From NCBI GenBank assembly GCA_017935565.1, contig JAGBHK010000022.1:62001-126000 (forward strand): DNA of 64,000 nucleotides, in the 5' to 3' direction. This document shows positions 39,736 to 63,028 of this stretch, one piece after another (positions within the stretch are counted from its first letter, which is position 1; every line of letters starts with the position of its first letter). The notes under the pieces are model-generated. The model was not told where the DNA came from. It searched no databases and saw only the letters and a list, made by a program, of their open reading frames with translations. The stretch is from Lachnospiraceae bacterium (GTDB taxonomy: Bacteria > Bacillota > Clostridia > Lachnospirales > Lachnospiraceae). A program made the translations under genes and the position numbers.

Positions 39736-39745
39736 AGGAGGAGAA

Positions 39746-40162: not shown

Positions 40163-40178
40163 AAGGGAGTGATAATAT

Positions 40179-40670
40179 ATGTTAATTGAAATCAACAAAG
40201 ACATAGACCGTTATCAGGAATCACTGGCAATGGGACTCACGGCAAAACAGTTAGTATTTTCCGTTGCCAGCGTGATTGCAGGAGGGACACTTGTATTTTT
40301 TCTGTACAGATATATAGGTCTTACAGTTTCTGCATATGTGGCAATACCAGTGGTTTCACCGATTGCTCTTGGAGGTTTCTATTCATATAATGGTATGGAT
40401 TTTTATGAATATATGAGTAGAAAGCTACATTTTATGTTTTCTAACAGAACACTTACATATGTGTCAACAGAGAGCGAGCAGTTGATTAAGAAGTATGAAA
40501 TGGAAATTGTGAATGCACAAAAATCCGGTAAGAGTACAAATGCAGAAGAAGCAGAAAATATCAGTGAATTTGAGGCAATGAAGGAAAAAATGAAAAGAAC
40601 TATGCTTATATGTGCAATGATAATAGTTATGCTGGTTATTGCAGCAGTTGCTTACAAATTTATGAGATAA
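40179..40670 (+). CDS. prgI: PrgI-family (VirB3-like) protein
   Basis: A 163-aa PrgI-type protein. The start LIEINKDIDRYQESLAMGLTAKQL leads to two adjacent membrane helices (about 28-70), then YNGMDFYEYMSRKLHFMF. A third helix forms the C-terminus. PrgI proteins sit directly before virB4 in Firmicute conjugation systems, as here. They form part of the inner-membrane channel. Confidence 0.9.
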   Translation: MLIEINKDIDRYQESLAMGLTAKQLVFSVASVIAGGTLVFFLYRYIGLTVSAYVAIPVVSPIALGGFYSYNGMDFYEYMSRKLHFMFSNRTLTYVSTESEQLIKKYEMEIVNAQKSGKSTNAEEAENISEFEAMKEKMKRTMLICAMIIVMLVIAAVAYKFMR

Positions 40671-40717
40671 AAGTTAAATATGTTCTGACTTTTGTGGTCG
40701 GGGCAACTTTGGCATCA

Positions 40718-40735
40718 GCCGGGATTGCACCCGGC
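40718..40735. repeat. Short GC hairpin upstream of virB4
   Basis: GCCGGG and CCCGGC flank ATTGCA in a G/C-rich patch of 100 bp between prgI and virB4. It lacks a T run and might tune virB4 expression. Confidence 0.45.
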
Positions 40736-40774
40736 ATGGTGTGATGAATAATCGCGAAAGAGAGGGAGAAGAAC

Positions 40775-43153
40775 ATGGGTTTATTTTCAGACGGATTTAA
40801 GGAACTTAAGAAAGCAAGCGAGCCTTTATATAAGTCTCCAAAATCCATACAGGAAACCATAGAGATTATGGCAGTGGCTGAAAATGGAATATTTGAGGTG
40901 GCTAGAAACAAGTATTCCAAGTGCTACCGCTTTCAGGACATTAATTATACAACTACCAGTGAAGATGAGCAGATGGACATATTTGAGAGATACTGCAAAT
41001 TCCTTAATTCATTAGATTGTTGCTTTAAGATAACAACAAATAATAAAAATAAGAATATGGATGAGCTTAAGAGTCAGATATTAATCCAGTATATGGATGA
41101 TGGATATGATGAGTACCGTAAGGTATATAACGACATCATAGAAGAAAAGATAATTGAAGGAAGACAAGGTATAGAGCAGGAGAGGTACCTGACAATTACA
41201 ATTGAGCGAAAGAATTTTGAAGAGGCAAAAGCACAGTTTGCAACACTTGAAGCAACCATACATAAGGCTTTTGTTGAACTTGGTGCGGAAATTATACCAT
41301 TAAGCGGAAATGAGAGGTTAAAAATATTACACGATTTCTATCATTTGGGGGATGAAAGTTCTTTTGATTTTGACATAAAGAAAGCAAGAAAAATAGGTGC
41401 TGATTTTAGAAATGATTTGTGCAACGGCATGCTTAAGTTCTTTCCAGACAGATTTGAGGATGAAGGTAAGTATTGTAAGGCATTGTTCATAAAAAAGTAT
41501 CCAAGCAGCTTATCTGACAGATTTCTTAATGAAATCACATCACTTCCTGTGCATTCAATGGTTAGTATAGACGTAGTTCCCATACCAAAGGATTTAACAC
41601 AAAGGACATTACAGAAAAAGTATTTAGGTATTGAGTCAGACATCATCAAGCAACAGCGTATTCGTAATAAAAACAATGATTTTTCATCAGAAATATCATA
41701 TGCAAAGCGAACGGAAAAGCGAGAAATAGAGGCTATAATGGATGATGTGCGAGAAAATGACCAATGCCTTTTTTATGTGGGTGTTACGATTATACTTATG
41801 GCTGATTCGCTTGAGGAGTTAAAAAGTGTTGAGGAAACAGTCGTAACCATTGGAAAGCGTAACAGCTGCACCATTGATGTTCATTTCTTAAAACAGAGGG
41901 AGGCATTAAATACCGCATTGCCTATAGGCGTAAGACAGGTGGAAACAATGAGAACAATGCTTACACAGTCACTTGCAGTGTTAATGCCTTTTAATGTGCA
42001 GGAACTTAACCAGCTCGGAGGAAACTATTATGGTATCAATCAGGTGTCAAAAAACATCAATGTAGGTAACAGAAAGAAGCTTATCAACGGTAACGGCTTT
42101 GTATTTGGTGTGCCAGGTTCTGGTAAATCGTTCTTCTGTAAAATGGAGATGGGTTCAGTATTTTTGAGTGGAGATGATGAGATTATTGTTATTGACCCAC
42201 AAAATGAATACTTTGATGTTGCCAGGACATATGGTGGGACTGTCGTAAATATGTCTACATATACGGATAATTATGTGAATCCATTGTCAATGGATGTATG
42301 GAATCTCGACCAGAGTGACAGTAAAGGATGGATAAGAGAAAAGGGAGAATTCATGCTTGGATTATGTGAGCAATGTATAGGTGACTCTTTAAATTCAAGA
42401 CAGAAGTCAATCATTGACCGTTGCATCAGAAATATGTACACAGAGATTGCAAGAAACAAAGAAAAATACATACCTGTAATGTCTGATTTCTATGATTTGC
42501 TACTAAAGCAACCAGAGGAGGAAGCAAAGGATATAGCTTTGTCACTAGAGCTGTTTGTAAATGGTTCACTTAATATATTTAATCACCAGACTAATGTTGA
42601 TGTAGACAACAGATTTACAGTCTATGGTATAAGAGACTTGGGGGCGGAACTCAGTCCTATTACAATGCTTGTGATGATGGAGTCAATACAGCAGAGAATA
42701 ATCGAGAATGGTAATAAAGGTAAGGCTACATGGTTATATATAGATGAATTTCATGTGCTTTTAAATTCAGAATATTCAGCAAAATATTTGCAGCAGTTGT
42801 GGAAAAAGGTGAGAAAGCAAGGTGGCTTATGTACTGGTATTACACAGAATGTGACAGACCTTTTGCAAAATTATACAGCTACAACAATGCTTGCAAATTC
42901 AGAATTTGTGGCACTTCTTAAACAGGCGAATACGGACAGTTCAAAAATGGCAGAGGTTATCAGCGTATCCGATGCACAGCTTAATTATGTAACAAACACA
43001 TCATCCGGTATGGGGTTACTTAAGTGTGGTTCTGTGGTAGTGCCTTTTGATAATCAGATCGGGAAGGATACTGGTATTTATAAGCTGTATAATACAAATA
43101 TTCATGAGAAGATTGCGGAGAGGAAAATAAAAGACAAATATATGGAAAAATAA
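40775..43153 (+). CDS. virB4: VirB4-type conjugation ATPase
   Basis: A 792-aa secretion ATPase. The N-terminal half is the CagE/TrbE-like region. Walker A GVPGSGKSFF (K451) and Walker B TWLYIDEFHVLL follow, with RKQGGLCTGITQNVTDLL near the end. It energises pilus and channel assembly. The ATG has AGAGGGAG 9 bp upstream. Length is normal. Confidence 0.92.
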   Translation: MGLFSDGFKELKKASEPLYKSPKSIQETIEIMAVAENGIFEVARNKYSKCYRFQDINYTTTSEDEQMDIFERYCKFLNSLDCCFKITTNNKNKNMDELKSQILIQYMDDGYDEYRKVYNDIIEEKIIEGRQGIEQERYLTITIERKNFEEAKAQFATLEATIHKAFVELGAEIIPLSGNERLKILHDFYHLGDESSFDFDIKKARKIGADFRNDLCNGMLKFFPDRFEDEGKYCKALFIKKYPSSLSDRFLNEITSLPVHSMVSIDVVPIPKDLTQRTLQKKYLGIESDIIKQQRIRNKNNDFSSEISYAKRTEKREIEAIMDDVRENDQCLFYVGVTIILMADSLEELKSVEETVVTIGKRNSCTIDVHFLKQREALNTALPIGVRQVETMRTMLTQSLAVLMPFNVQELNQLGGNYYGINQVSKNINVGNRKKLINGNGFVFGVPGSGKSFFCKMEMGSVFLSGDDEIIVIDPQNEYFDVARTYGGTVVNMSTYTDNYVNPLSMDVWNLDQSDSKGWIREKGEFMLGLCEQCIGDSLNSRQKSIIDRCIRNMYTEIARNKEKYIPVMSDFYDLLLKQPEEEAKDIALSLELFVNGSLNIFNHQTNVDVDNRFTVYGIRDLGAELSPITMLVMMESIQQRIIENGNKGKATWLYIDEFHVLLNSEYSAKYLQQLWKKVRKQGGLCTGITQNVTDLLQNYTATTMLANSEFVALLKQANTDSSKMAEVISVSDAQLNYVTNTSSGMGLLKCGSVVVPFDNQIGKDTGIYKLYNTNIHEKIAERKIKDKYMEK

Positions 43154-47752: not shown

Positions 47753-48158
47753 GAAAAAGGTTGAAAACGTAATGTTCACGCTTAAAAAGGATGCTTTAAT
47801 TAAATATAATAGCATTATTGGTAAAGGCTCTGCTGTTGAAAGATAATACAGAAATAATAAGTTAAATGAAGTCAATTTTTTATTAGATAATACTTTTTTA
47901 ATAGTATACAAATTTATAGGTATAATAAAAATATAAGTTTATAGATTTTTAGGTGCAAAAATGGCACTTTAAATGTCGAAAATGGCGCGTTGCTCCTTGA
48001 AAATTAAAAAATAATGTAAATTAAAAGTATTATAAATGTGCAAGGAGATGGTTGGGAGAAAATAATAGAATTATTGATATTTTATTAAAGTAGCAATTGA
48101 TGAGTAAAATGAAAAAGGGTTTAATTTTAATGTTTTACCCTAAGATTGGAGGATTATT
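47753..48158. other. Junction between transfer backbone and quorum-sensing cargo
   Basis: A 400-bp gap. A short frame at 47772-47849 (MFTLKKDALIKYNSIIGKGS start) lacks a ribosome site and may be a fragment. The region carries LytTR-type operator 1 and the promoter for the secreted-protein operon. No other gene seen. Confidence 0.55.
47957..48021 (+). promoter_or_regulatory. LytTR operator 1 and promoter
   Basis: Half sites ATGGCAC (47961-47967) and ATGGCGC (47982-47988), 21 bp apart, flank AAATGTCG. A likely -10, TAAATT, starts 27-28 bp after the second half site. The same layout recurs at three other places in the window. It should put the secreted-protein/ABC operon under AgrA-like control. 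Confidence 0.85.
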
Positions 48159-48581
48159 ATGAACAAAATTGTAAAAAACATTATCGCATTAATGATGGTA
48201 CTTGTTGTGGTGTCAACAATGTCACAAAGTGTATCAGCGGAAACCTTTTACTGGTCGGCAACAAAAACACCAGGTATGACTAGTGATTATGATACGGTAA
48301 AGATTGCTTTGTATAAAGGTACAATGACATTTAAAGTTACTGATTTGAACGGAAGTTGTAGTTATTTAGTAGGACAATGTGAAAGCCTACATTCTAATTT
48401 GTATTATATTAATAATACAGCTAAAAATGTTAAGATAAGTGTTGAAAATGGTACCCAAACTTTTATTATGGCATTTTCAAGTGCTGGAGAGAAGGAAGAT
48501 TATATGTATCTTAAATGTTCAGTTGAACATAATGCATCTGTTGGTCAGTTAGCAGCTGCAGCGGGAATAATATATTTCTAA
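48159..48581 (+). CDS. Small secreted protein under Agr-type operator
   Basis: A 140-aa protein with a classical signal peptide (MNKIVKNIIALMMVLVVVST, cleavage probably after SVSA). The mature part of about 112 aa has three Cys (NGSCSYLVGQCES and LKCSVEH) and ends in a hydrophobic AAAAGIIYF. No family recognised. It is followed at once by a membrane protein and an ABC transporter and preceded by operator 1. A bacteriocin-like or signalling role is plausible by context only. GGAGG precedes the ATG. Confidence 0.7.
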   Translation: MNKIVKNIIALMMVLVVVSTMSQSVSAETFYWSATKTPGMTSDYDTVKIALYKGTMTFKVTDLNGSCSYLVGQCESLHSNLYYINNTAKNVKISVENGTQTFIMAFSSAGEKEDYMYLKCSVEHNASVGQLAAAAGIIYF

Positions 48582-48582
48582 T

Positions 48583-49821
48583 ATGAGGAACAGGTTTATG
48601 AAAAAGAATAGGACTAAAGTGTTAATAATCAGTGTATTGTTGATAATAGTTTCTTCGTTGCTTATTGCATTTTTATTATTTCGAAAAGAAGACACATCAA
48701 AAGAAGGTGTGGAATTGGATAGGGTAAAGGAATTGTTATCAACGGATTTAGATGAATTAAAGAATGGTAAGTATAGCAACTTGATATATCATGAGTTTGA
48801 TTTATCGCTTGATGATGTAAAAGGTGTGTATAAATTAGAGATAGAATCTGATAACAGTTACCAAGAACGTTCATTTCTTGAAAATTTTGAAATAATGAAA
48901 AGTGTTATTGATAAGTTTTTTAATGCTGATTTTGATAAGTCGTATATTGTAGCTGATTTTCCGTTTGAAGATGGCACAGAGTATATTGAATTTAACAAAA
49001 TTACGTCAAAATGTGCAGATAAAAAATATAATATGGACAGAAACACATATTTATTCGGAAATAATACATCTGAAGGCGGATATATGGTTCAAATATCAGA
49101 ATCGCTTATTAATACATGGTTTTCTAGATTTGGTTTGGGCTCAATTATGCCGTCTCAACTTGAAATCAAAAATGTATATACATATATATCGGGTAATAGA
49201 CAAGGTGAAGATGTAATGTTGAATTTGAAGGATGGAACAATAAGTCTTTCGACAATGGAAGAAAAGGTGTTGGCCTTTTTAAATCAAAATTTTCCAATGC
49301 CAGTGAGTGATGGAATTACCTTTGGAATAGGCGAGGCAAGGGTATTGGATAATGGAGAGTATGATGGTGTGAGTTTTAAAGCAAGACGAATATATAAAGG
49401 TGTTCCATTCGAATATGGTTCAAATATATCAACTGGTATGTATATAGATAAATATGATAGTGATTGTGGTGAAGTGGCTTATGCAGAATCAAGTGCACCG
49501 GATACTATGTTGGCTTTTGGTAACATAAACGGTACGGTTGTTGAAACTGAATGCATATCTAAAATTCTTACAGTAGGTGATGCACTAAATATTTTATCTA
49601 AACAAGTAGGTGATAACTCGGTTTATGATGTATATGGCATAGAGTTAGTTTACAGAGATGATGATATACCAGAAGAGAAGAAGAATGAAATAGACGATAT
49701 ATTAGTTCCGAAATGGAAAATTATCACGGTAAATCAAAATGATGATAAATACACAATGTTTTATGTGGATGTAGTATCAGGCGAAATAACAGAAAGATTT
49801 GAGTATTATTATGGTAATTAA
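48583..49821 (+). CDS. Membrane-anchored extracellular protein
   Basis: A 412-aa protein with one N-terminal membrane helix (about 13-33) and a large outside domain containing FFNADFDKSYIVADFPFEDG, NRQGEDVMLNLKDG and a late WKIITVNQNDDKYTMFYVDVVSGEI, which resembles PepSY-like or regulatory ectodomains but is not assignable. It begins 1 bp after the secreted protein gene and overlaps the next permease by 11 bp. It may be an immunity or accessory protein of the transporter. Confidence 0.65.
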   Translation: MRNRFMKKNRTKVLIISVLLIIVSSLLIAFLLFRKEDTSKEGVELDRVKELLSTDLDELKNGKYSNLIYHEFDLSLDDVKGVYKLEIESDNSYQERSFLENFEIMKSVIDKFFNADFDKSYIVADFPFEDGTEYIEFNKITSKCADKKYNMDRNTYLFGNNTSEGGYMVQISESLINTWFSRFGLGSIMPSQLEIKNVYTYISGNRQGEDVMLNLKDGTISLSTMEEKVLAFLNQNFPMPVSDGITFGIGEARVLDNGEYDGVSFKARRIYKGVPFEYGSNISTGMYIDKYDSDCGEVAYAESSAPDTMLAFGNINGTVVETECISKILTVGDALNILSKQVGDNSVYDVYGIELVYRDDDIPEEKKNEIDDILVPKWKIITVNQNDDKYTMFYVDVVSGEITERFEYYYGN

Positions 49822-50569
49822 ATTGTACACAAAAAGGATTCTTTTTAATAAACTTTTTTGGCTGTCAGTAATGGCAGCCTTGTTCTTGTTAATGGGTTCT
49901 ACGGTATATGTAGATATATTAAGTGGAAAACAGTATATGTTTTATAATTTGATTTATGACGATATGCTTAAGGAATTGGTATATAATGGTCAGATATCTT
50001 TACATAACATAATGCTTGGGTTTGATAGTAGTTATCTATGGATGTTTTGTCCAATTATTGTGGGAATACCGTGCATAATGACGAAAAAGATAGAACGTTT
50101 TGTATTATTTAGAAGTGATAAAAGAAAGTATGTGTTTGGTAAATTCTTTTTAAATATTCTAGCAGGTGGCTTGATGTTGTTTATTGCGTATCTTGTTTAT
50201 GTAAGTATAGCTGTTGTAATACTTAAAGATAATATATGGGATATTAACCTTGTAAAGAAAATGTTATCAGTATTTTGTTGGGGAATTATGAGCGCTATAC
50301 CATGTAATCTGTTATGTGAATTCCTTGAAAATAAGTATTTGATACTATGTATTCCATTTGTGTTAAATTACTTTATGTATATGTTTGTTCCAGGGTGGTT
50401 CACATATGATGTTGGAAAGTACATTGATCCATCAGGATATCAAATATTTTTTTTGCATGATAAAAAAACGATTATCACATATTTGCTGATTAGTGCATTT
50501 GTAATAGGCATAAGTACGATTTTTAAGTGGATTATGGCTGAGAGAAGGTGTGATTGTGGACAGAAATAA
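49811..50569 (+). CDS. ABC transporter permease
   Basis: About 252 aa with six predicted membrane helices. The first follows KLYTKRILFNKLFWLSVMA. It resembles ABC-2-type permeases of bacteriocin or lantibiotic export/immunity systems. ATG 49811 was chosen over an upstream TTG. It overlaps its neighbours on both sides, which shows one operon with the second permease and ATPase. Confidence 0.75.
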   Translation: MVIKLYTKRILFNKLFWLSVMAALFLLMGSTVYVDILSGKQYMFYNLIYDDMLKELVYNGQISLHNIMLGFDSSYLWMFCPIIVGIPCIMTKKIERFVLFRSDKRKYVFGKFFLNILAGGLMLFIAYLVYVSIAVVILKDNIWDINLVKKMLSVFCWGIMSAIPCNLLCEFLENKYLILCIPFVLNYFMYMFVPGWFTYDVGKYIDPSGYQIFFLHDKKTIITYLLISAFVIGISTIFKWIMAERRCDCGQK

Positions 50570-51419
50570 GATATTGAGAATGGCAAAAAATGAATATGTA
50601 AAATGGATTACTAATCCGAAAATGATTATATTGGTTGTAATGCTTATATTTGCATATGATTATGTGATTTTAGAATTAAGCGATGCGGCTGATAAGATGA
50701 ATGTCAATATACAGATTTTTGAAGGATTTATAGGTATTTCTAACTCGCAAGTACTTATAATGATTATTCCGATTGTATTTATTGGACTTATGGGAGACTT
50801 TCCAAGAACCGATGGAAATTCAATGCTATACATTTATAGAATTGGCAAGACGAATTGGCTTATGGGTCAGGTGTTATTTTTGATGATGGCATCAGTAACG
50901 TATCTTGCTTTATTGATAGGATTTAGCATCGCTACACTATCTGGAAAATCATATTTTTCTGATAAATGGAGTGAAGTAACGACAAAATATTATCTATTTG
51001 CACCGAATGATTATGAAAGTAATGTGGCAAAGCTTACTACTGGAAGACTATATAACAATCTAAAACCGACAGAAGCTATGGCGAATATAGTGGTATTAAT
51101 GTTTCTGTTGATGATATTGATTTCTATGATGTTATTGGTTGCATTTATATGTAAAAGAAAAATTGCAGGAATGGTAATAACTATAGGCATAATGTGTATG
51201 GGAAATGTTTTTGCATATATGGAAAATAACACAAGATGGCTATTCCCAAGCAGTCATGCAATATTAGAGATGCATTTTGATGAAATATATAAGGAACCTG
51301 TTATGGATATGTGTTGGTCTTATATGTATTACATACTCGGGATAGCTGTATTATTCATAATAGCACTGGTAAATGTTGATAAATATGATTTTTCTAAGAT
51401 ACAGGAATTGGAGGAATAA
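50550..51419 (+). CDS. ABC transporter permease
   Basis: A 289-aa polytopic protein (about six helices) with an early cytoplasmic segment NEYVKWITNPKM and a long external loop (GKSYFSDKWSEVTTKYYLF region). It is the second ABC-2-type permease of the set. GTG 50550 follows GAGAAGG and overlaps the preceding gene by 20 bp. It is directly followed by the ATPase. Confidence 0.75.
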   Translation: MIVDRNKILRMAKNEYVKWITNPKMIILVVMLIFAYDYVILELSDAADKMNVNIQIFEGFIGISNSQVLIMIIPIVFIGLMGDFPRTDGNSMLYIYRIGKTNWLMGQVLFLMMASVTYLALLIGFSIATLSGKSYFSDKWSEVTTKYYLFAPNDYESNVAKLTTGRLYNNLKPTEAMANIVVLMFLLMILISMMLLVAFICKRKIAGMVITIGIMCMGNVFAYMENNTRWLFPSSHAILEMHFDEIYKEPVMDMCWSYMYYILGIAVLFIIALVNVDKYDFSKIQELEE

Positions 51420-51420
51420 A

Positions 51421-52050
51421 ATGATTCATATTAATAATTTATCATTGAAAATAAAAGAAGATGTTATATTATCTGATATTACCCTGAATATAAAAAAAGG
51501 AAAAATCACAGGTCTTGTTGGAAGGAATGGATGTGGAAAAACAATGCTTATGAAGTGTATTACAGGCTTTGTAAGACCGACAAGTGGAGAGGTGATTTTT
51601 GATAATAAGAAAATTGGTATAGATATTGATTTTCCAGACAATACGGGGATAATTATCGAAACACCTTCGTTCGTGCCATATTATACAGGACTAAAAAATC
51701 TTATGGAACTTGCTATGCTTCAAAAAAAGATAGGAAAGAAGGAAGTTGAAGCTGCATTAAAGCAGGTTGGATTATATGAGGCAAGAAACAAAATGGTTAG
51801 GAAATATAGCTTGGGAATGAAGCAAAGATTAGGAATAGCCCAAGCTTTGATGGAACACCCGGATACACTTATATTAGATGAACCTATGAATGGATTGGAT
51901 AACGAATGTGTAAAAATGGTGCGTAATATTTTGATGAAGCTTAAAGAAGAAGGTAAAACAATACTTCTTGTTAGTCACAATGCGGAAGATATTAGAGTTT
52001 TGTGTGATGAAATATATGAAATGGATAAGGGAAAGATAATTGTGGGGTAG
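51421..52050 (+). CDS. ABC transporter ATP-binding protein
   Basis: A 209-aa ATPase with Walker A GLVGRNGCGKTMLM, Q-loop region around GIIIETPSF, signature YSLGMKQRLGIAQALMEHP, Walker B TLILDEPMNGLD and H-loop LLVSHNAED. It forms an exporter or immunity transporter with the two permeases. ATG 51421 has TTGGAGGAAT upstream and lies 1 bp after the permease stop. Confidence 0.9.
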   Translation: MIHINNLSLKIKEDVILSDITLNIKKGKITGLVGRNGCGKTMLMKCITGFVRPTSGEVIFDNKKIGIDIDFPDNTGIIIETPSFVPYYTGLKNLMELAMLQKKIGKKEVEAALKQVGLYEARNKMVRKYSLGMKQRLGIAQALMEHPDTLILDEPMNGLDNECVKMVRNILMKLKEEGKTILLVSHNAEDIRVLCDEIYEMDKGKIIVG

Positions 52051-52147
52051 ATTTATGAGAAAAAGAATTCATATTTTTGGATAGGTGTTTAATGGGTACG
52101 AAATGGATTGTCATAGATTTAAATTTATCGCATAGGAGGAAGTTTCA

Positions 52148-53135
52148 ATGAGAATATTATTGAGAAATATTGCTATTTTTTTTGTGTTTAACAATAAGTA
52201 TGATTTCTACAGTTGAAATTTATGCTAATGATAATATCAGTACTATTATTAGTGAAGAAACGGATGTGTTACAAAGTAATACAGATGATGGAAATAATAA
52301 TAATGTGGAAAATATTATAAAAATAAACGAAAAATTATACGATTTATATGGTACATGGACATCAATTATAGCAATAATTGCTATTTTGATTACAATATTA
52401 GGATTTGCTGTGCCATTATACAATAGTAAAAAAATTGATAGAAAGATTGAAAATGCTATTTGTGAAATAAAAAAAGAGAATGAATTGATAAATAAAAAAC
52501 AGCTATTGCTGAACAATGCATTAATGCTATCAGCATCATCGAATTATTACTCATCTAATAAAATACTAAATAGACTTGTTGAAACAGACAAGAGTAATAG
52601 TTATTTGCATCTGCTTATAGGTAGAAATATATTTCATAAATACGAAACTGTATATATCGAAAGAGAATTGGATTACGATGAAATAAATGAAATAGAAAAA
52701 GCGATTAAACATTTTTTGTTTGTGGCTGATAATAGTGATAAGGATGAAGAATATTATGAACTTGGTTCTGTTTTTTCAGACAGTATTATTCATGAGTTAT
52801 GTATGCTAACAAATAGGTTGATAGAATTTTCTATAATGCATGAGTATACTGGAAATTATCATAAGTTAGCAATAAGGGTAATAAAAGCGATTGAGGATTT
52901 GCTGGGGATTAAAGAATTTGATGATATAGTTAATGAAGAACAAAGCAATGTTCATATAATGAATTACATTATTCTTAATCATATGTTGGCGAAAAGTTAC
53001 TTGCATTATGGAAATATCAAAGCGAAAGAGCAATATGAGTATACCATTAAGTTGTACTCTATATCAAAGGAATTAGATTATGAAAAAGAAATAAATGATT
53101 GCTATGAAGCGATAAATTCAATATTAAAACGATGA
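52148..53135 (+). pseudogene. Secreted/membrane TPR-like protein, signal peptide frameshifted
   Basis: AGGAGGAAG precedes ATG 52148, which starts MRILLRNIAI and then runs out of frame through eight T (52177-52184). Removing one T continues FLCLTISMISTVEIYA, a complete signal peptide, into the long frame that ends at 53135. The protein would be about 328 aa: signal, charged linker, one membrane helix (IIAIIAILITILGFAV), coiled coil and a helical domain with TPR-like spacing. Function unknown. The lesion is a homopolymer length change, so an assembly error is possible. Confidence 0.65.
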
Positions 53136-53148
53136 AAAAGGAGAGGAG

Positions 53149-53213
53149 AGTGTTATAGAGCTAGAAAGAACGAAATAGTTTAACACACTCTAATTCTCTA
53201 TAACACTTTTTCT
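53149..53213. terminator. Convergent bidirectional terminator
   Basis: AGTGTTATAGAG (53149-53160) and CTCTATAACACT (53196-53207) are perfect 12-bp complements, followed by T run. It lies between the convergent 52148 gene and the minus-strand XRE gene. Confidence 0.65.
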
Positions 53214-53457
53214 ACTTACCGTCTATGAGGTATTCATAGCTAACATCAAAAATTTCTGTTAATACTTTTAATTCAAAGTCGGTTACATATCTTTTGTTTG
53301 TTTCGATTCTGGTAATGACATTTTTATCTATATCATATCCAGCGAGTTGAAATCTATGTGCTAAGTCTCTTTGGGATAAATGGTGTTGTTTTCTTAGTTC
53401 AATAAGACGTTTACTGATAAGGTTTTTACCACCATCTGCAGTTCTTGGTTTTAACAT
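53212..53457 (-). CDS. XRE-family regulator
   Basis: About 81 aa with a single HTH: LISKRLIELRKQHHLSQRDLAHRF, then YDIDKNVITRIETNKRYVTDFELK and VSYEYLIDGK. The start (MLKPRTADGGK) was chosen because AAGAAGGA lies 6-7 bp upstream on the minus strand; an upstream ATG adds seven residues. It is the only minus-strand gene in the quorum-sensing region and is divergent from agrB, with operator 2 between them. Confidence 0.85.
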   Translation of the reverse strand: MLKPRTADGGKNLISKRLIELRKQHHLSQRDLAHRFQLAGYDIDKNVITRIETNKRYVTDFELKVLTEIFDVSYEYLIDGK

Positions 53458-53642
53458 AAATATCCTTCTTTCACTCATTATATCAATATATTTTGTCTCA
53501 TTTTTGCAATTTTATATTGATTTTAAATCAGAAACAGGTTAAAATCGGTTGTAAAAGTGATACAAAATCTTTTGAGTATATGCTTGTCAATTGAATTTTT
53601 ATTGGCAATTATAGAAAATGTAGAAAAAATATGGTTTTGTAC

Positions 53643-53708
53643 AAAAATGGCACATCAAATGTCGAAAAAGGCACATTGAATAATGTGTAAAAGAAAGAAT
53701 GATATATT
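53643..53708 (+). promoter_or_regulatory. LytTR operator 2 and agrB promoter
   Basis: Half sites ATGGCAC (53647-53653) and AAGGCAC (53668-53674), 21 bp apart, flank AAATGTCG. TATATT at 53703-53708 begins 28 bp after the second half site. It should give positive feedback on agrB and the following kinase genes. Confidence 0.85.
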
Positions 53709-53742
53709 TTTCAACGAATAAATAAGTTTGGAGATAAAATAT

Positions 53743-54336
53743 ATGATTCAGAGATTAGTAGACAAAATAATAAACCGACAAATTAAAAATAAGACAATAT
53801 TGGAGAATGAGGTTAATATATATCGATATGGGTATTTTTTATTGTTTGAGATTTTGATAAATATAATAATTTCTATATTTATTGGAATGATGTTTAGAGA
53901 TATGGAAACGATTTTGGTTTTCTTGTTTATGTATGTTCCATTGAGGACATATAGTGGTGGATGGCATGCGAATAAATTATGGAAATGTACACTTATTTCA
54001 AATCTTATTTTAGTCATAGCAGAAGTTATTATAAATTATTGGATAGAGTATATTTCTGTAACTAATGGTTTGTTTGTCGCAATATGGTGCGTTGTATTAA
54101 TATTAGTTTTTTCTCCTGTTGATACAGAAACAAAAATATTAAATGAGGTAGAGAAAAAAATATACAAAAGGAAAACCTATGTTATTGCAATGATTCAAAT
54201 TTGTATAATGTGTTTTTGTATAGTATTTTCCAAGAATAAATATTCTATAATAATTGAGTATACATATTTTATACAGGCTTTAATGTTAATTGTCGAAAAA
54301 ATAAAAAGATGTTCAAAAATTAAGATAAAATATTGA
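53743..54336 (+). CDS. agrB: AgrB-like peptide processing protease/exporter
   Basis: About 197 aa, integral membrane. The active-site region RTYSGGWHANKLWKC carries catalytic H75 and C82 with the 7-residue spacing of AgrB. LVFSPVDTETK matches the conserved loop after it. Five to six hydrophobic segments surround it. AgrB cuts the AgrD C-terminus and forms the cyclic thiolactone peptide. It is followed by a LytTR regulator and kinase, but its AgrD is not adjacent: candidate substrates lie at 56634 (decayed) and 60929 (intact). Confidence 0.9.
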   Translation: MIQRLVDKIINRQIKNKTILENEVNIYRYGYFLLFEILINIIISIFIGMMFRDMETILVFLFMYVPLRTYSGGWHANKLWKCTLISNLILVIAEVIINYWIEYISVTNGLFVAIWCVVLILVFSPVDTETKILNEVEKKIYKRKTYVIAMIQICIMCFCIVFSKNKYSIIIEYTYFIQALMLIVEKIKRCSKIKIKY

Positions 54337-54396
54337 GAATTGTCGAAATGTATGTTATAATAATTCATTAACTTGAAAAGAAGGAGGGGCATCCCT

Positions 54397-55137
54397 GTGA
54401 TAAACATTGCTATTTGTGATGATGATAAGAATTTTATTTCATACATAAAAAGGATTATAATAGCATCTGGAGCAGAGCCACAGACAACATTTTTTGATGA
54501 ATATACATCAGGAAAAGAGTTCATCTTTAATTTGGAATCGAGAAAAAAGTGTGATTTGTTAATTTTGGATATGCAGTTAGGCGATATGGATGGAGATGAT
54601 ATTGCAAAGAAATTTAGGGAGATGTATCCATATGCAATACTTGTTTTTTGTTCAGGGTTGCATTTACCAACTGTAAAATCTTTTAAAACAACTCCTTTTA
54701 GATATTTACTTAAATCATATAGTGATGATGAAATGATTGAAGAAATAAAAGAAATATTAAAAGAAGTGGATAGAAATAGTGAAGAAGGATTTCTTGTAGG
54801 TCATTATCGATATAATGCGATAAAAGTAAAATTGAAGAATATTATGTATATAACTAATACTAAAAGAGGTAGTAGAGTGTTTGTTACACCAGAATGTAAT
54901 GAATATAATTTTGAAGAGCAAATATTAGTGGATGCAAAACTGCAAGACTTGTATGAAAAATATGAAAAAGATGGTTTTGAATTTGCGCATGTAAGTTATA
55001 TTGTGAATATGCGTTATGTGAAACAAATTGTGTCTAGAGAATTAGTATTATATAACAATGAGAGATTGTCAATATCGCGAAATTATTATACAAGTTTTCG
55101 AGAGCGATTCACTAAAAATTTAGCAAGAAAATATTAG
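54397..55137 (+). CDS. AgrA-like LytTR response regulator
   Basis: About 246 aa. Receiver: INIAICDDDKNF and acceptor D58 in LLILDMQLGDMDG, with lysine in RYLLKSY. The LytTR DNA-binding domain follows (VKLKNIMYITNTKRGSRVFV, YIVNMRYVKQI, LSISRNYY). LytTR proteins bind 9-bp half sites repeated every 21 bp, exactly the layout of the four operators here. GTG 54397 was chosen for AAGGAGG about 10 bp upstream. It is encoded with the kinase that follows. Confidence 0.9.
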   Translation: MINIAICDDDKNFISYIKRIIIASGAEPQTTFFDEYTSGKEFIFNLESRKKCDLLILDMQLGDMDGDDIAKKFREMYPYAILVFCSGLHLPTVKSFKTTPFRYLLKSYSDDEMIEEIKEILKEVDRNSEEGFLVGHYRYNAIKVKLKNIMYITNTKRGSRVFVTPECNEYNFEEQILVDAKLQDLYEKYEKDGFEFAHVSYIVNMRYVKQIVSRELVLYNNERLSISRNYYTSFRERFTKNLARKY

Positions 55138-55155
55138 ACATAGAGGAGAATAGTG

Positions 55156-56472
55156 ATGGACACATTGGATACAGTAATAATGTTTGTAGGATGTATAATT
55201 GAAGTGTATCTTATATTCGATTATTTTTATAATTTCTTTTCGATTAAGGAGAGATGGACAAATAGAAATGTTTGGATTATAGCAACAAGTGTCTGTATAT
55301 CTTTGTTTGCGGTTAACTTGTTAAAAAACGGTTTTTTAAATTTATTTGCGTTTCCTTTATTATTATGGATATTTGTGTCATTGGTATTTGAGTCGAAGGT
55401 AGGTGTGCGTATAGGATATTTTGTATCGGCGTATACGGTTATGATAGGAGTTGAATTTTTATATTTGATAATGTCGGAGACGACATTAAGTGTGGTAGCT
55501 AAAACAGGCCTTGTTCCGTTTTCACAATATGCATGGCAATTGATATTTGTAAAATTTCTTAATTACATAGTATTTGCTATATTAAAGCAAACATCAGAAA
55601 AATCAAAAAAAAGATTGTCAAATAAGATGTTTGTCGCATATTTATGTTTACCTGTGTGTACAATTGGTTGCATGGTAACAATATTTTATTCAGGCGTTGA
55701 CTTCTCGGGAAATTTTATGCCTAAATTATTGATGACAATATTTTTTGTATGTATGCTTTTGGGTAATATTTTGGTTTTTTATGCTTTTCAAAGTTATACA
55801 GAGGGATTGTACAAAGAGAGCGAACATCAGGTTGAGATAATGCATCAAAAAGCAGAAATATATCGTTTAAACCAGATAACAGAGATGAATGAAAATTATA
55901 AAGAAATGGTTCATAATACAAGTCATTTTTTGAAAGTGATAGGAGAAATGGCTGCAGAAAAACAAAATGAGGAAATATATGACTTGGTAAAAAAGATAGA
56001 TGGAACATTTGAAAAGAATATTGTTACTGTATATAGTGATTATAAAATACTTAATACATTGTTAGCTGAAAATGAAGTTAAGGCAAGAAAAAATGGAGTA
56101 TCGTTTGATGTATATATAGAACAGGGAACAAATTTAGATAATATATCGGATATGGATATGATTTCTATGATAGGAAATTTGTTAGATAATGCTGTTACAG
56201 CTGCATCTAAAAAGGTAGAGAACTCGTTGGTAAAAGTAAGAATTTATATGCAAAATGAAGGAAGTATTTGTGTAGTAAAGATTGTTAATGATTATGTTGA
56301 AAAACTGGTAAAAAAAGATGGAAAGTTGAAGACAACAAAGAAAGATGGTGGCCTTCATGGAATAGGAATGTCAAGCGTAAATCGTACAGCAGAGAAGTAT
56401 GATGGATATCTAGAGTATTATACGGAAGAGGATAAGTTTGTTTCGGTATTGGTATTGCCGATTATAGAGTGA
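55156..56472 (+). CDS. AgrC-like sensor histidine kinase
   Basis: About 438 aa: six to seven N-terminal membrane helices (1-205), a coiled-coil, and a GHKL kinase core. The H-box reads EMVHNTSHFLKVI with H253; most AgrC-type kinases have HD..NH, so here Asp is replaced by Asn. N-box SMIGNLLDNAVTAAS and G-box GGLHGIGMSSV are intact. It should sense the cyclic peptide. AGAGGAGA lies upstream; it follows its regulator by 18 bp. A terminator follows at 56491. Confidence 0.88.
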   Translation: MDTLDTVIMFVGCIIEVYLIFDYFYNFFSIKERWTNRNVWIIATSVCISLFAVNLLKNGFLNLFAFPLLLWIFVSLVFESKVGVRIGYFVSAYTVMIGVEFLYLIMSETTLSVVAKTGLVPFSQYAWQLIFVKFLNYIVFAILKQTSEKSKKRLSNKMFVAYLCLPVCTIGCMVTIFYSGVDFSGNFMPKLLMTIFFVCMLLGNILVFYAFQSYTEGLYKESEHQVEIMHQKAEIYRLNQITEMNENYKEMVHNTSHFLKVIGEMAAEKQNEEIYDLVKKIDGTFEKNIVTVYSDYKILNTLLAENEVKARKNGVSFDVYIEQGTNLDNISDMDMISMIGNLLDNAVTAASKKVENSLVKVRIYMQNEGSICVVKIVNDYVEKLVKKDGKLKTTKKDGGLHGIGMSSVNRTAEKYDGYLEYYTEEDKFVSVLVLPIIE

Positions 56473-56490
56473 AAAAATTAAGTTTAATTG

Positions 56491-56520
56491 ATACCTGGTG
56501 TATTTACCAGGTATTTTTTT
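56491..56520 (+). terminator. Rho-independent terminator
   Basis: ATACCTGGT and ACCAGGTAT flank a 6-base loop, followed by T run. It ends the agrB-regulator-kinase operon. Confidence 0.85.
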
Positions 56521-56524
56521 ATGT

Positions 56525-56590
56525 AAAAATGGCTCCTTAAATGTCGAAGATGTCACATTGTTTAGTGAATAATATATGACAATGTATAAT
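56525..56590 (+). promoter_or_regulatory. LytTR operator 3 and promoter
   Basis: Half sites ATGGCTC (56529-56535) and ATGTCAC (56550-56556), 21 bp apart, flank AAATGTCG. TATAAT at 56585-56590 begins 28 bp after the second half site. It drives the decayed agrD and the subtilase. Confidence 0.85.
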
Positions 56591-56633
56591 TTATTTTGTA
56601 AAAAACATAAATTTATTTTAGGAGGAACAAGAA

Positions 56634-56732
56634 ATGAAGGTGACAGAAAGATTGAATATGAAAGTTATAGTAGGTGTTAACTCATTAGCAAAGAAAATGG
56701 TGGTGCAGAATGATAATTTGACACATAGCTGA
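56634..56732 (+). pseudogene. Decayed AgrD-like peptide gene
   Basis: AGGAGGAA precedes ATG 56634. The 32-codon frame (MKVTERLNMKVIVGVNSLAK start) matches the intact AgrD at 60929 in its leader (MKV...LN.KV, LAKKMV.QN.N.T). Where the intact copy has Cys-Val-Trp this one reads His-Ser-stop, so the thiolactone cysteine is lost and the tail missing. It could be a pseudogene, or its leader may now serve only to couple translation. The subtilase gene follows. Confidence 0.7.
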
Positions 56733-56812
56733 TTAACACATCATTAGGCATAATAAAGAAGTGTAACTGATTACAAGTTAAAGGAAAAATATTGGAGGAA
56801 AAGAATTGAACT

Positions 56813-59800
56813 ATGAAAAAAATATATAAAAGAATGCTATCATTTTTTATGGCATGGGTGATATGTTTAGGCTTAATACAAATGCCAGTGATGGCAGAAA
56901 CACAAAATAATGGTGTGTATAATCCTTGTTTTGTCTTGTTTGCGCAACAAACAGAAAATTCAATTAATATCACTGGAAATAGTATTAGTATTAATGGAGA
57001 TATAATAACAAATGGTACAGTATTAACTGTTTCAAACTATTCTGGTATTAATGGTTCTATTTTGGAAGATCAAGAGAATTGTATGATAGATTATCATTCA
57101 AGTATTGAAGAGTTATACTTTGGTGAAGAGGTGCGATATGTAGAGAATGATTATGTTCAAAATGAATATAACGAAAATATTAATGTTTCGACATTTGTTG
57201 AAGGTGATTTTAATGGTGGAAATAATGTATCACTAAACAATTCAGCACTTATGACAATTGAAAATATAAATATAGAAGGGGGTAATTTTAATTCAAATAA
57301 TGCAGTAATATATTCTCAATTTGGAGATATTTATGTTAATAATGATAACTTTTCTTCAAATGGCTTAATATATGCACCATTAGGTAAAGTTTTTATAGAA
57401 AGTGGTAATGTAAATATTAGTGGTTGTATCATTGCTCAAGAAATTGAAATTATTGGTGAATATAATGTTAATATAAATAAAAATGAAAGTTTTATAAAAC
57501 AATTTAAAAATGAAGAAATAAGTTCGGATACAGATGGTGAAGATTGTGATTATATTGATATAGGGACTATTTACGCTAAAAATATTCAAAAGGTTGATGA
57601 TATTATCTATGCAGGCGAAGGTATTTATTGTGTTAAGAATCAATTACAGTTTACAGCAAATGAGTCTGTTACATATGATGAAATTGAGAAATTTGTGGAA
57701 AGTTTGGAGGCGGAAATTGTTGGGTATATTCAGATGACAAATGATTACCAAATAGAGTTTCAATATGATATAAATGTAGAGGAATTAAAAATTATTATAG
57801 ATGAACTGTAGGAAAATACATTGATAAAAGAAGTATCCTTTAATTATGTAATAGAGAGTGAAGAAGAATTCTGTACGAATGATGCAGAGTGGAATAGTGA
57901 GTGGAATGAACAACAACCAAAAGGAAGAAATTGGGGAATTGAAGCTATAAAATTGGAATCTGCATTGATAAATCTAGGAGTAATAACAAGTGAATCTTCT
58001 AATAGTGTGGAAACAGATATAAGTATGTTGTATGATGTTAAAATAGGACTAATGGATGGTCAATTCGATACTGAACATAATGACTTAGTATTTTCAAAAG
58101 TATGGAATAATGATACGGATGAAAATAATTCGCATGGAACACATGTGGCTGGAATTATGGGTGCTGAATTTAATAATGGATTAGGTATTACAGGTATTAG
58201 TGTTAAGAATAGATTATACGGTTTTTCAACTAGTGGAGATAAGGATGAAGATTTAAACGGGAAAACATCTTTCTTTTTTGATAAGTATTGTTTGGCACTA
58301 TTGATTGGAAATAATGTTAAAGTTATAAATCATAGTCTTGGAAATGGAAATATGGCTTTTTATGCTGCGCAAGGAAACGAAAATGCATTAAACTTCTGGG
58401 AAGAAATAACACCCAAATATGAAACTTTTTTGGTAAAACTTATAGAAAAAGGATACGATTTTTTGATTGTAACATCTGCAGGTAATTCAAATGATGATAT
58501 TTATTATAAGGATGATAATGAAAAAGAAGCACCATATGGTTATATAAATTTGGCTGATTATGATGAAAATGAACATCCTAATGCTGATGTATCTGTAACA
58601 TATGGGTCTTCAACATCAAATGCTGATGAGATTTTAAATGAAACTGACGCGAAATATGATGATGAATTTCAGTATAGTAGTCATTATAGGCTTAGAACAA
58701 GAGTGGTTAGTGTGGGTTCTTTCGGATGTGATTCAGCAGGAAACTATTATATGTCTGACTTTAGTTGCAGAGGTTCACGGGTGGATATTCTAGCACCAGG
58801 AGAAAAGATATATAGTTGCTCATATACTGGTAATGGAGAAGGAGGAACTGACTATGAGGAGATGAGGGGAACCTCAATGGCAGCACCACATGTGTCAGGT
58901 GCGTTAGGATTAGCATATTCGTATTATCCAGCAATAAGTGCTTCTAAATTAAAATCCGCTATAATAGTAAGTGCAGCAGATCATGATATAATTGAAAATA
59001 ATAGGAATTACAAAGTTCTTGATGCGGCAGCTACAATAGAAAAAGTAAAAGATGTATATAACAGGTTAAAAAAATCGAATAAAAATGTATCAACAAATGA
59101 ATATAGTGGTATTGCAATTGGTATAGTAACAGATGAAGATGGCAATCCGCTATCAAATGTGAGTGTAACTGCAACTTTAGCGAGTGATGAAGGTTTATCA
59201 ATTGAAAATAGTATAGAGTATGTTGTTTGTACAGATGGAAATGGTGAATATGATATGATCTTACCACCAGGTGAATATTTATTGCAATATGGAAAAAGTA
59301 ATTTTCTAGGGGAAACTGTATATTACAATGCAGAACCAGAGGAAACAACTTATATAGATACGGTGGTTCTATTTAAAGAAAAAATATATTCAAGTATTTT
59401 GTTGACATTATACGGAAGAGTACAAGATGCAATAAGTGGAATAGGAGTAGAAGGCGCTACTGTAAAATTCAGAAAAGGATGGAATAATACAAATGGCAAA
59501 TATGTAAGTACGATATGGGGTGATGAAAAAGCAACAACAGATGGAAATGGAGCATATTCTGAAATGCTTTCTGTAGGAGCATATACTGTTGAAATAACAA
59601 AATCGGGATATATTAAAGCATATGCTAATATTGTAGTGTCTCCTAACGCGAATATACAATATACAACAATAACACCGATATTAGATGATGATGAATACAG
59701 AGTTATTTTAAGTTGGGGAGATGTACCGAGTGATTTGGATTCGCATTTGGTAGGTAATATAGATGGTGAAAATTATCATGTGTACTATTCAAATAAGTCG

Positions 59801-60103
59801 TATTATTACGATGATGAGTTAGTGGCATCTTTGGATTTAGATGATACATCAAGTTATGGACCTGAAACAATAACATTTACCTGGAAAGAAGATTTAGGCG
59901 AATGTACATATTATGTGCTTGATTTTACTAATAGATATAATTCCAGTTCGAAAGCATTATCATTTTCGTCGGCTAAAGTTCGCGTATATAAAGGAAATAA
60001 ATTAGTTGAAACATTTAATATTCCAGTTGGTTACGAAGGAACTAAATGGAATGTGTTTTCTATAAAAGATGGTGTATTGACGAAAATAAATACCATAGAA
60101 TGA
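56813..60103 (+). pseudogene. Secreted subtilisin-like protease split by an in-frame TAG
   Basis: A signal peptide (MKKIYKRMLSFFMAWVICLG start, cleavage after VMA), a 300-aa Asn-rich propeptide region ending IQMTNDYQIEFQYD, then TAG at 57809-57811. The same frame reads on with ENTLIKEVSFNYVIESEEEF, the usual end of such propeptides. An S8 domain follows, with Asp (GLMDGQFD), His (SHGTHVAG), Asn (SAGNS) and Ser (GTSMAAPHVSG) all intact, then two carboxypeptidase-regulatory-like beta domains. Restoring one codon (for example CAG) gives a 1096-aa protease. Without readthrough, only an internal TTG (57821) could start the catalytic part, without signal peptide. Confidence 0.85.
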
Positions 60104-60114
60104 GGTGATAAACT

Positions 60115-60762
60115 ATGAAAAAGATAACCTTTTTTCTTGTGTTGATGAGTTTTTTTTTGATAAATGCATGTGACAAAGAAAAAGAAGTGAACCAAACCGA
60201 AAGTAATATAGAAAAAGAAACCATAGGTGATAATGAATTGATTATGGAGAATATCGAATTGTTTGCTATACAACAATATATTGACGAAGAGAATAGAATA
60301 ATATATAATTTGTTTTTTATTATAAAAGATGGTTCGATATATACTATGAATTATGTTACAAACGTTGGTGGTTCTGATAATAATAGTTTTATAAAAAAGT
60401 TTTTCAATTTTGATAATAATATATGGGGGTTAGTTAATGGAATTAAAAAAGTTGGAAAACTTTCAGATGCAGAAAATGGGTTATTAAAAGAATGTTTACC
60501 GAAAGTGAATAAAGATAGTGGTTATTTTAAAGCAGATAAAGAGAAAATACCTGATGTAGAAGAAGTAGTATATTATAAAATTTATTGTTGCATCGGTGAG
60601 AATGATAGAAGCAAGGATACATTTTGTATAGCAAAAAATGGGAAATTAATTGGAAAATTATATGAAACATACGATAAAGATGCATTAAAGTTGTTGGAAA
60701 TGCTGGAAAATAATGTAATTTATTCAGAATGGTCAAATGTTTATTTGAATACCGTACATTAA
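60115..60762 (+). CDS. Small lipoprotein of unknown function
   Basis: A 215-aa lipoprotein with lipobox FLINAC (Cys about residue 19) and a soluble outer domain (FFIIKDGSIYTMNYVTNVGG, KNGKLIGKLYETYD). No family recognised. It starts 11 bp after the subtilase stop behind GAGGTGAT, so it is co-transcribed and could be a partner or inhibitor of that protease. A strong terminator follows. Confidence 0.7.
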   Translation: MKKITFFLVLMSFFLINACDKEKEVNQTESNIEKETIGDNELIMENIELFAIQQYIDEENRIIYNLFFIIKDGSIYTMNYVTNVGGSDNNSFIKKFFNFDNNIWGLVNGIKKVGKLSDAENGLLKECLPKVNKDSGYFKADKEKIPDVEEVVYYKIYCCIGENDRSKDTFCIAKNGKLIGKLYETYDKDALKLLEMLENNVIYSEWSNVYLNTVH

Positions 60763-60764
60763 TT

Positions 60765-60813
60765 AAAACGCTGTCGTGTTAATGTGTGATAACATTAAAA
60801 ACGACAGCGTTTT
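60765..60813 (+). terminator. Strong rho-independent terminator
   Basis: AAAACGCTGTCGT and ACGACAGCGTTTT are perfect 13-bp complements around a loop of 23 bases. Confidence 0.85.
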
Positions 60814-60825
60814 CTTGTTAAATGT

Positions 60826-60891
60826 AAAAATGGCTCTTTAAACGTCGAAAATGGCACATTGCAATACACAAAAGTGTATACGTTGTAAAAT
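60826..60891 (+). promoter_or_regulatory. LytTR operator 4 and agrD promoter
   Basis: Half sites ATGGCTC (60830-60836) and ATGGCAC (60851-60857), 21 bp apart, with AACGTCG between. TAAAAT at 60886 begins 28 bp after the second half site. It lies 72 bp before the intact agrD. Confidence 0.85.
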
Positions 60892-60928: not shown

Positions 60929-61084
60929 ATGAAAGTAGCAAAAATCTTGAACAAGAAGGTGACAGCGTGTACAAATGCGTTAGCAAAAAAAATGGTAGCG
61001 CAGAACGCTAATTCTACATGTGTATGGTTAGCATATCAGCCTACATTACCAGAGGAAGCAGAAAAATTTAGAAAGAAAAAATAG
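60929..61084 (+). CDS. agrD: AgrD-like cyclic peptide precursor
   Basis: A 51-aa precursor. The amphipathic leader is MKVAKILNKKVTACTNALAK. The core NSTCVWLAYQPTLPEEAEKF matches the AgrD pattern: a thiolactone Cys31, four following residues (VWLA) and a Pro/Glu-rich C-terminal tail with Y-Q-P-x-L-P. The predicted autoinducer would be a five-membered ring (CVWLA) with a short N-terminal tail. GGAGGT lies about 10 bp before ATG 60929. AgrB at 53743 is the visible processing enzyme. Confidence 0.88.
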   Translation: MKVAKILNKKVTACTNALAKKMVAQNANSTCVWLAYQPTLPEEAEKFRKKK

Positions 61085-62314: not shown

Positions 62315-63028
62315 ATGATGATTAAGATTGCGATATGTGATGATGATAGACAAATTGGTGGGAAATTAGAAGAAATGCTTATTAAGTTATTAAATAACAA
62401 TAATATACGGTATGAAATTGATGTGTTTGAGACAGGAGAATCCTTGTGTCGTGAATTCGAAAGAACAGAATATGATTTGATGTTTTTAGATATAGAGTTA
62501 CCAGAAATGAATGGTGTTCAGATAGGAAATTATATCAGAGATGTTAAGAAAAACAATATAGTACAGATTGCATATATATCCTCAAAGCAAGGATATGCAA
62601 TGGAGTTGTTTGATGTACGTCCAATAAATTTTCTTATAAAGCCATTAGAAGAGTTTAAGGTTCAAAAAGTAATTGAAACGTATATAAAAATAAATGGTGG
62701 AAAGAAAGATTTATTTTGCTATAAAAAGGGATTTGTATTTCACAGAATAGAAATGTATAAGATAAAGTACTTTGAAAGAGAAGGTCGTAAGGTAATAATG
62801 CATACTCTGGATGGTGATGTTGAGTTTTATGAGTCAATGGAAAAAATTTATGAAACGACAAAAAAATATAGATTTCTATTTATTCATAAATCATATATGA
62901 TAAATACTAGATATCTTAAAAATATACATTATGATAGGGTGACACTTGTTGATGGAGAGGATTTTCCTATAAGTCAGTCAAGAAGAAAAGAAATAAGGGA
63001 AATGTTTAAGTTAATGGAGGAAGATTAA
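62315..63028 (+). CDS. Second LytTR response regulator
   Basis: A 237-aa regulator. Receiver: IKIAICDDDRQIG, D59 in LMFLDIELPEMNG, K in FLIKPLE. LytTR domain: FHRIEMYKIKYFEREGRKVIM, YMINTRYLKNIHYDRVTL and FPISQSRRKEI. It is paralogous to the regulator at 54397 and may share the same operators. Its stop overlaps the ATG of the following kinase. Confidence 0.9.
   Translation: MMIKIAICDDDRQIGGKLEEMLIKLLNNNNIRYEIDVFETGESLCREFERTEYDLMFLDIELPEMNGVQIGNYIRDVKKNNIVQIAYISSKQGYAMELFDVRPINFLIKPLEEFKVQKVIETYIKINGGKKDLFCYKKGFVFHRIEMYKIKYFEREGRKVIMHTLDGDVEFYESMEKIYETTKKYRFLFIHKSYMINTRYLKNIHYDRVTLVDGEDFPISQSRRKEIREMFKLMEED

Follow-up and report, generated by a model that had tools for sequence, protein, structure and literature searches.

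Candidate operator of an AgrA-type LytTR regulator shared by a split Agr circuit, a Lamassu operon and secretion genes on a Lachnospiraceae conjugative element

Among the closest described systems is the agr locus of Staphylococcus aureus. For its response regulator AgrA, the accessible part of one report gives two 9-bp sites located 12 bp apart (PMC10482373), and that of another gives promoter spacers of 18 and 20 bp, with repeats centred near -60 (PMC4227749). Our analysis concerns a stretch of 64,000 nt (the window) from a Lachnospiraceae bacterium, the right edge of which is C39:126000; site coordinates are those of the window unless prefixed with the contig, C39. The window covers part of an integrative conjugative element of about 79.6 kb, in which a short motif recurs upstream of Agr-type signalling genes and of several other genes. 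The gene at 54397-55137 encodes a LytTR regulator of the AgrA type, AgrA1, and we consider it likely that this motif serves as its operator. AgrA1 would belong to a split Agr circuit carried as cargo of the conjugative element. The geometry of the motif fits that of S. aureus AgrA.

Operator sites and promoter geometry

An earlier note on this DNA had reported four sites in the window and assigned them to a LytTR regulator, and all four are present on the + strand. Operator 1 (47961-47988; half-sites 47961 and 47982; -10-like TAAATT at 48017-48022) lies upstream of a secreted-protein/ATP-binding cassette (ABC) operon, and operator 2 (53647-53674; half-sites 53647 and 53668; -10-like TATATT at 53703-53708) upstream of agrB. 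Operator 3 (56529-56556; half-sites 56529 and 56550; -10 TATAAT at 56585-56590) precedes a decayed agrD and a subtilase gene, and operator 4 (60830-60857; half-sites 60830 and 60851; -10-like TAAAAT at 60886-60891) an intact agrD. These neighbours are the ones that had been named, with the addition that the subtilase gene is split. Two further copies are located beyond the window edge: operator 5 (C39:130666), upstream of lmuA, and operator 6 (C39:134647), upstream of another agrD. The proposed local regulon including agr genes is retained, but it comprises six sites instead of four, and the extra two add a Lamassu operon and another agrD to it.

The step between half-site starts is 21 bp in 4/4 window sites, as had been stated, but the half-sites are not ATGGCAC throughout: the first reads ATGGCTC at 56529 and 60830, and the second reads, in order of position, ATGGCGC, AAGGCAC, ATGTCAC and ATGGCAC. 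The most conserved part of the operator is the middle element AAAYGTCGAA, which is AAATGTCGAA in three window sites and AAACGTCGAA at 60830, in agreement with the (A)AATGTCG previously described between the half-sites. The invariant columns of the four aligned window sites are AAAAATGGCnCnTnAAAnGTCGAAnAnGnCnCnTTG.

When a position weight matrix (PWM) was built from three sites and applied to the fourth, scores of 38.5-43.3 bits were obtained, against at most 14.9 bits elsewhere in the window, which bears out the claim that the window holds no further copy. The genome-wide motif scan that the earlier note had called for was run on 2,481,474 bases in 45 contigs, using a pattern in International Union of Pure and Applied Chemistry (IUPAC) code with up to 3 mismatches. 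It gave 6 matches, all in contig C39 within 25 kb, rather than many unrelated copies, and the reversed-pattern control gave 0; since the assembly is 81% complete, a further copy could be missing. Sites 5 and 6 have 2 mismatches each to this pattern. In 10-bp bins, pairwise identity among the four window sites averages 0.57-0.95 from -20 to +30 and 0.20-0.43 outside this range; the exceptions are the bins at +50, which is the -10 region (0.58), and at +70 (0.53). Because similarity falls outside about -20 to +30, the window sites are not long duplications. A terminator-like hairpin was listed by the terminator scan at 56490-56515, directly 5' of operator 3; inverted repeats with a T-run were seen by eye 5' of sites 4 and 5 and are unlisted by these scans.

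In all four window sites a -10-like hexamer begins 35 bp past the first base of the second half-site, or 28 bp past its end, which upholds the claimed distance of 27-28 bp; at site 1, however, this hexamer has only 4/6 matches to TATAAT, and a better one, AATAAT, occurs earlier, at 28. A 4/6 match is weak because the DNA is AT-rich, and stronger support comes from sites 2-6, which have 5 or 6/6 matches at 34-35. The TTG at offset 8 was taken as the -35 in sites 1-5 (TTT in site 6), and the resulting spacer to the -10 is 21 bp (20 bp in site 5). All six copies in this genome combine two direct half-sites, the 21-bp period and a long-spacer promoter downstream, as in AgrA-type operators.

Recurrence in other genomes and choice of regulator

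Relatives of AgrA1 at E<=1e-25 were found in 29/397 genomes of the family, own included, and flanking DNA was fetched for 18 loci in 17 other genomes. The PWM detected the operator at five of these loci, which represent five other genera and have AgrA1 identities of 55% (G083), 55% (G282), 50% (G277), 45% (G261) and 42% (G021); no match was obtained in 1.24 Mb of one-strand shuffles or in the two-strand reversed control. The copies of G282, G277 and G021 were found first by the six-site matrix and then used in training, and those of G083 and both of G261 were added by the retrained matrix. Most of these copies have the half-site GGACAT, as compared with GGCAC here, and the 21-bp step is retained. 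They are located upstream of agrB (G282, G261, G021), agrA (G083) and separate agrD genes (G282, G277, G261), and two additional copies in G021 precede genes starting with a hydrophobic stretch. The split plan of agrBAC and lone agrD is not peculiar to this element, since operators precede separate agrD genes in the positive genomes as well. The set of six sites here looks like an expansion, because each of the five positive genomes, to which the pattern was fitted, has one to three credible copies. A hexamer with at least 4/6 TATAAT matches at 34-36 bp from the second half-site start was found in 15 of the 18 operator copies compared (when the three top-ranked hexamers of each copy were considered), the exceptions being G083 and both G282 copies.

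Within the genus, the operator was found in 3/8 genomes, own included; it lies upstream of agrB in G004, and upstream of an agrB remnant and of a small unknown open reading frame (ORF) in G006. Across genome contigs, the six-site pattern matched 2 other genomes, both metagenome-assembled genomes of goat-gut Lachnospiraceae, and in viral contigs it had 0 matches. G257, a genome that contributed to no pattern, carries a copy with 2 mismatches located 99 bp upstream of an AgrB-like ORF (42% to AgrB1 over 144 residues). Six AgrA-bearing genomes were matched in a broad 2-mismatch scan of the 397 genomes; five of them (G000, G021, G261, G277, G282) had shaped the pattern and the sixth, G137, had not. 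The two G137 sites are upstream of lipoprotein-like and membrane-protein-like genes, and no AgrA1 or AgrB relative was found within the 2-3 kb fetched around them. Counting repeats by lag at the 29 AgrA1-relative loci gave a peak at 21 bp (38 matches; next lags 20, 18, 18), which is weak support because several matches lie in coding DNA. Repeats of 21 bp at the agrD genes of L059 and L065 were seen by eye only and left out of the counts. As a separate observation by eye, the operator-bearing lone agrD of G282 (locus L050) is followed by acyl-carrier-like, ABC, ABC-2-like and adenylation-like ORFs, which suggests a natural-product cluster beside the Agr circuit.

Several results weigh against an AgrA1 operator with these targets. 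No operator was detected by the PWM at 13/18 AgrA1-relative loci, all of them with at most 43% identity to AgrA1. The broad scan gave a match in 23 genomes and its reversed control in 32 (counted by hand), so that the 2-mismatch pattern alone is uninformative and the scan served only to place matches, and four of the eight matches inspected were repeats within Fic-like coding genes. Site 5 and one other copy are less canonical than the rest; site 5 has 2 mismatches, and its -10 is at 34 rather than 35. The link between Lamassu and the operator is seen in this genome only: relatives of AgrA1 and AgrB1 are absent from the 19-kb stretches around 5/5 other DUF3732/LmuB loci of the family. Finally, the conserved middle element matches the Spo0A box TGTCGAA.

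This last point leads to the alternative that the sites are Spo0A operators, in which TGTCGAA would act as a 0A box turning genes on at sporulation entry, the flanking repeats being secondary or a second input through AgrA. TGTCGAA is exact in 10 of the 18 copies and CGTCGAA occurs in one more, and Spo0A C-terminal domain matches are present in the own genome and in 19/19 relatives searched. However, TGTCGAA is not kept wherever the operator occurs: the other seven copies have TGTCAAA, GTCGACA or ACGACAA and come from genomes that retain Spo0A (G282, G083, G261, G021). Both G261 copies read GTCGACA and all three of G021 read ACGACAA, the copies in each genome having changed jointly while the 21-bp half-site pair was kept; the two copies of G282 differ by one base within the middle element. 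Moreover, six copies at one agr locus are unlike a genome-wide sporulation regulon. We therefore regard Spo0A operators as unlikely, and Spo0A as the sole binder was rejected as the main reading since the middle element diverges in genomes retaining Spo0A. Because the G261 and G021 copies changed jointly although Spo0A was kept, the middle element, which lies one helical turn from each half-site, is better read as having diverged with AgrA1 than as a Spo0A site; a dual input with Spo0A may nevertheless exist.

The earlier note had named both LytTR proteins as candidate binders. The second one, LytTR2 (62315-63028, + strand, identified by domain search), opens a full Agr-like set, module 2, which extends from 62315 to C39:127203 and includes LytTR2, AgrC2, AgrD2 (core NSNCTLFFYQP) and AgrB2, with secreted-protein/ABC genes behind. 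The location of this complete set between sites 4 and 5 would allow LytTR2, alone or together with AgrA1, to bind the sites, which would mean cross-talk of two Agr circuits on the element. We find this improbable, since Agr circuits usually control themselves and yet the whole-genome scan placed no operator of the six-site type upstream of any module-2 gene. In addition, LytTR2 is only 24% identical to AgrA1, with Q in place of R228, a residue nearly invariant in aligned AgrA1 relatives, and the site was found beside AgrA1 relatives (relatives of LytTR2 were not searched for). One of the five other LmuB loci matches LytTR2 weakly, at 25% over 108 residues. A PDB search with AgrA1 had no AgrA among the best 60 of 91 matches, in which receiver domains lead. 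As this kind of site accompanies the nearer AgrA1 relatives and is absent from module 2, AgrA1 alone, rather than both LytTR proteins, is probably the regulator that binds the operators.

An origin of the motif as a spreading repeat or integration by-product, copied with agrD duplications, is very improbable: 3/6 copies precede agrD or its remnant, so duplication could have carried some, but the four window sites largely cease to resemble one another at the operator edges, unrelated genes follow the copies with the -10 in register, and diverged copies precede agrB and agrD in other genera.

Circuit, target genes and carrier element

Behind operator 2 lie agrB1 (53743-54336, + strand, start ATG 53743; Pfam AgrB PF04647, 3.9e-35), agrA1 (54397-55137, +; LytTR 1.3e-12, Response_reg 8e-10), whose receiver and LytTR product is the proposed operator binder, and agrC1 (55153-56472, +; HATPase_c_5 4.3e-20) for a GHKL sensor kinase. 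Kinase and regulator share the operon agrB1-agrA1-agrC1, within which no agrD was seen. The agrD genes are lone, each with its own operator upstream: intact agrD1 at 60929-61084 (+; core NSTCVWLAYQP; TIGR04223 3.9e-09), an intact copy behind site 6 at C39:134750 (core NSACVWLAHQP) and the decayed copy at 56634-56732 (+), which has 32 leader residues, ends before the signal core and has no AgrD match. TIGR04223 was above the cut-off for the intact copies at 60929 and C39:134750 (L007:10750) and gave no match for the 56634 copy. The locus has the parts that define an Agr system, namely an AgrB membrane peptidase, an AgrD precursor with a cyclic-peptide core, and an AgrC GHKL kinase co-operonic with an AgrA LytTR regulator.

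In the proposed mechanism, AgrB1 would turn the AgrD peptides, which are transcribed separately and of which two are intact, into a secreted cyclic signal; its ring is predicted, by analogy with S. aureus, to be CVWLA in both. AgrC1 would sense this signal and phosphorylate AgrA1. As a dimer, AgrA1 would then occupy both half-sites, which are separated by two helical turns, and activate the promoters, where the -35-like TTG appears too distant from the -10 (21 bp) for unaided activity. The agrBAC promoter and two agrD promoters carry the site, which would produce positive feedback, and the other promoters so controlled would be those of the secreted-protein/ABC operon, the decaying agrD/subtilase unit and intact lmuACB. 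We infer AgrA1 binding, activation over repression, peptide processing and density dependence from the sequence. Whether the element runs its own peptide circuit, with several co-regulated AgrDs feeding one AgrC/AgrA pair, and arms Lamassu and releases secreted products only at high density of the cells that carry it, is in our view evenly balanced. Immunity would in that case be gated by cell density, would move with its switch as a single unit and would not depend on the regulators of the host; the conserved middle element would make the operator a LytTR site with three contacts.

The site-1 operon (48159-52050, +) encodes a secreted-looking 140-aa protein, proteins of 412, 256 and 289 aa, and an ABC ATPase (51373-52050; ABC_tran PF00005, 2e-31). 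The Pfam search found no family above cut-off for the first four; that the small secreted proteins are bacteriocins was rejected, as no family was above cut-off. Behind site 3, the subtilase gene (56813-60103, +) is interrupted by an in-frame TAG at 57809-57811 and split into ORFs 56813-57811 and 57821-60103, the second of which has Peptidase_S8 (PF00082, 9.6e-34). Since the agrD core is lost and the subtilase ORF split, this unit is evidently a decaying arm of the regulon, unless the assembly is in error. Site 5 starts 179 bp upstream of the first ATG, or 206 bp upstream of a GTG, of the three-gene lmuACB operon. PADLOC matches cover nearly the full length of the products (LmuA 9e-45, LmuC 4e-11, LmuB 1e-123), which contain the Pfam domains CTD7 (LmuA), MC3 (LmuC) and DUF3732 (LmuB). 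Judged by these matches, the three genes are an intact Lamassu (ABC-three-component) defence operon, and protection against phages is predicted. DUF3732/LmuB is present in 1/8 genomes of the genus and 6/397 of the family, own included. Site 6 is followed by the intact agrD and then by ORFs for a 144-aa protein that looks secreted, a protein matching DUF5050, a membrane-protein-like product of 743 aa and an ABC ATPase.

The mobile carrier that had been proposed is well marked. Conjugation genes occupy 32035-43153 (+), with a relaxase ORF at 32035-33465 (C39:94113), a type IV secretion system (T4SS) coupling protein at 36133-38277 and a VirB4/TraG-type ATPase at 40775-43153; a tyrosine integrase gene at C39:150403 is followed by ychF (TIGR00092, 2e-149). 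The first 17 bases of ychF (C39:151117-151133) recur with one mismatch at 9556-9572 (+), where this remnant of the ychF start marks the left end of the element, and TTGGTACGTAA repeats are found near both ends. Together with the relaxase, coupling protein, ATPase and integrase, the repeated ends identify an integrative conjugative element whose insertion point is the 5' end of ychF, and all six operators lie inside it. The whole-genome scan found no operator upstream of the transfer genes, and Agr control of these was rejected because no site is there; the predicted operator-controlled programme is one of cargo only. The earlier proposal that secretion, protease and signal genes share the sites stands, with the reservations that the protease unit is decaying and that the transfer genes are without a site.

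Other genes were noted on the element. The left cargo (10230-20001) contains a split adenine methyltransferase-like pair, a HATPase protein, a PtuB-like HNH protein, a large nSTAND NTPase and a small protein that no PADLOC model matched; these are possibly further defence genes. Inside the conjugation run, 43261-44163 matches the PADLOC candidate family PDC-S15 (5e-38), and 21477-21722 matches the Rfam family RF02942, Clostridiales-3 RNA (160.7 bits, E 3e-43).

Comparison with known systems

The S. aureus agr system (AgrBDCA, P2/P3) likewise has AgrB, AgrD, a GHKL AgrC and a LytTR AgrA; its half-site sequence differs from the one here. Twin half-sites with a 21-bp period and over-long promoter spacers are also common to both, according to the accessible parts of the S. 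aureus reports (PMC10482373, PMC4227749). In contrast to S. aureus, agrD is here outside agrBAC, in more than one copy and with its own operator, the circuit is carried on an integrative conjugative element, the spacer between the half-sites is strongly conserved, and no RNAIII match at Rfam thresholds occurs in the window or in C39:124001-144000. The agr3 genes of the Clostridioides difficile phage phiCDHM1, homologues of agrB, agrC and agrD, are likewise found on a mobile element, but the accessible part of its description names no response regulator among the three genes and describes no operator set or defence operon (PMC3901668).

Other Lamassu or ABC-three-component systems resemble this one in having LmuA with CTD7, LmuC with MC3 and LmuB with DUF3732, whereas here an agr-type operator lies upstream, and five other loci of the family have no AgrA1/AgrB1 relative alongside. 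In literature searches with subscription papers and preprints outside their scope, no Agr control was found among the matches listed for quorum sensing with Lamassu, as judged by title and start of abstract, none was found that combined AgrD, LytTR and Lachnospiraceae, and no such Agr operator for this gut family was among the matches listed. Lamassu is not mentioned in the accessible part of a paper on lanthipeptide neighbourhoods (PMC12715929).

If the proposed control is true, this would be a Gram-positive-type case of phage defence under an Agr peptide signal, with both on the same mobile element, and through one shared control site immunity would come to depend on crowding. A synthetic peptide would then allow a direct test of when, and for what reason, bacteria bear the cost of Lamassu. 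The motif would also predict Agr-controlled promoters in a gut-bacterial family, in which half-site and regulator appear to diverge together across genera.

The described case of quorum-sensing control of CRISPR-Cas involves another signal, regulator, defence system and phylum. It is alike in that phage immunity is, in the accessible part of the report, placed under quorum sensing (PMC5179492), and it differs from the locus described here, where signal and defence are located on one mobile element.

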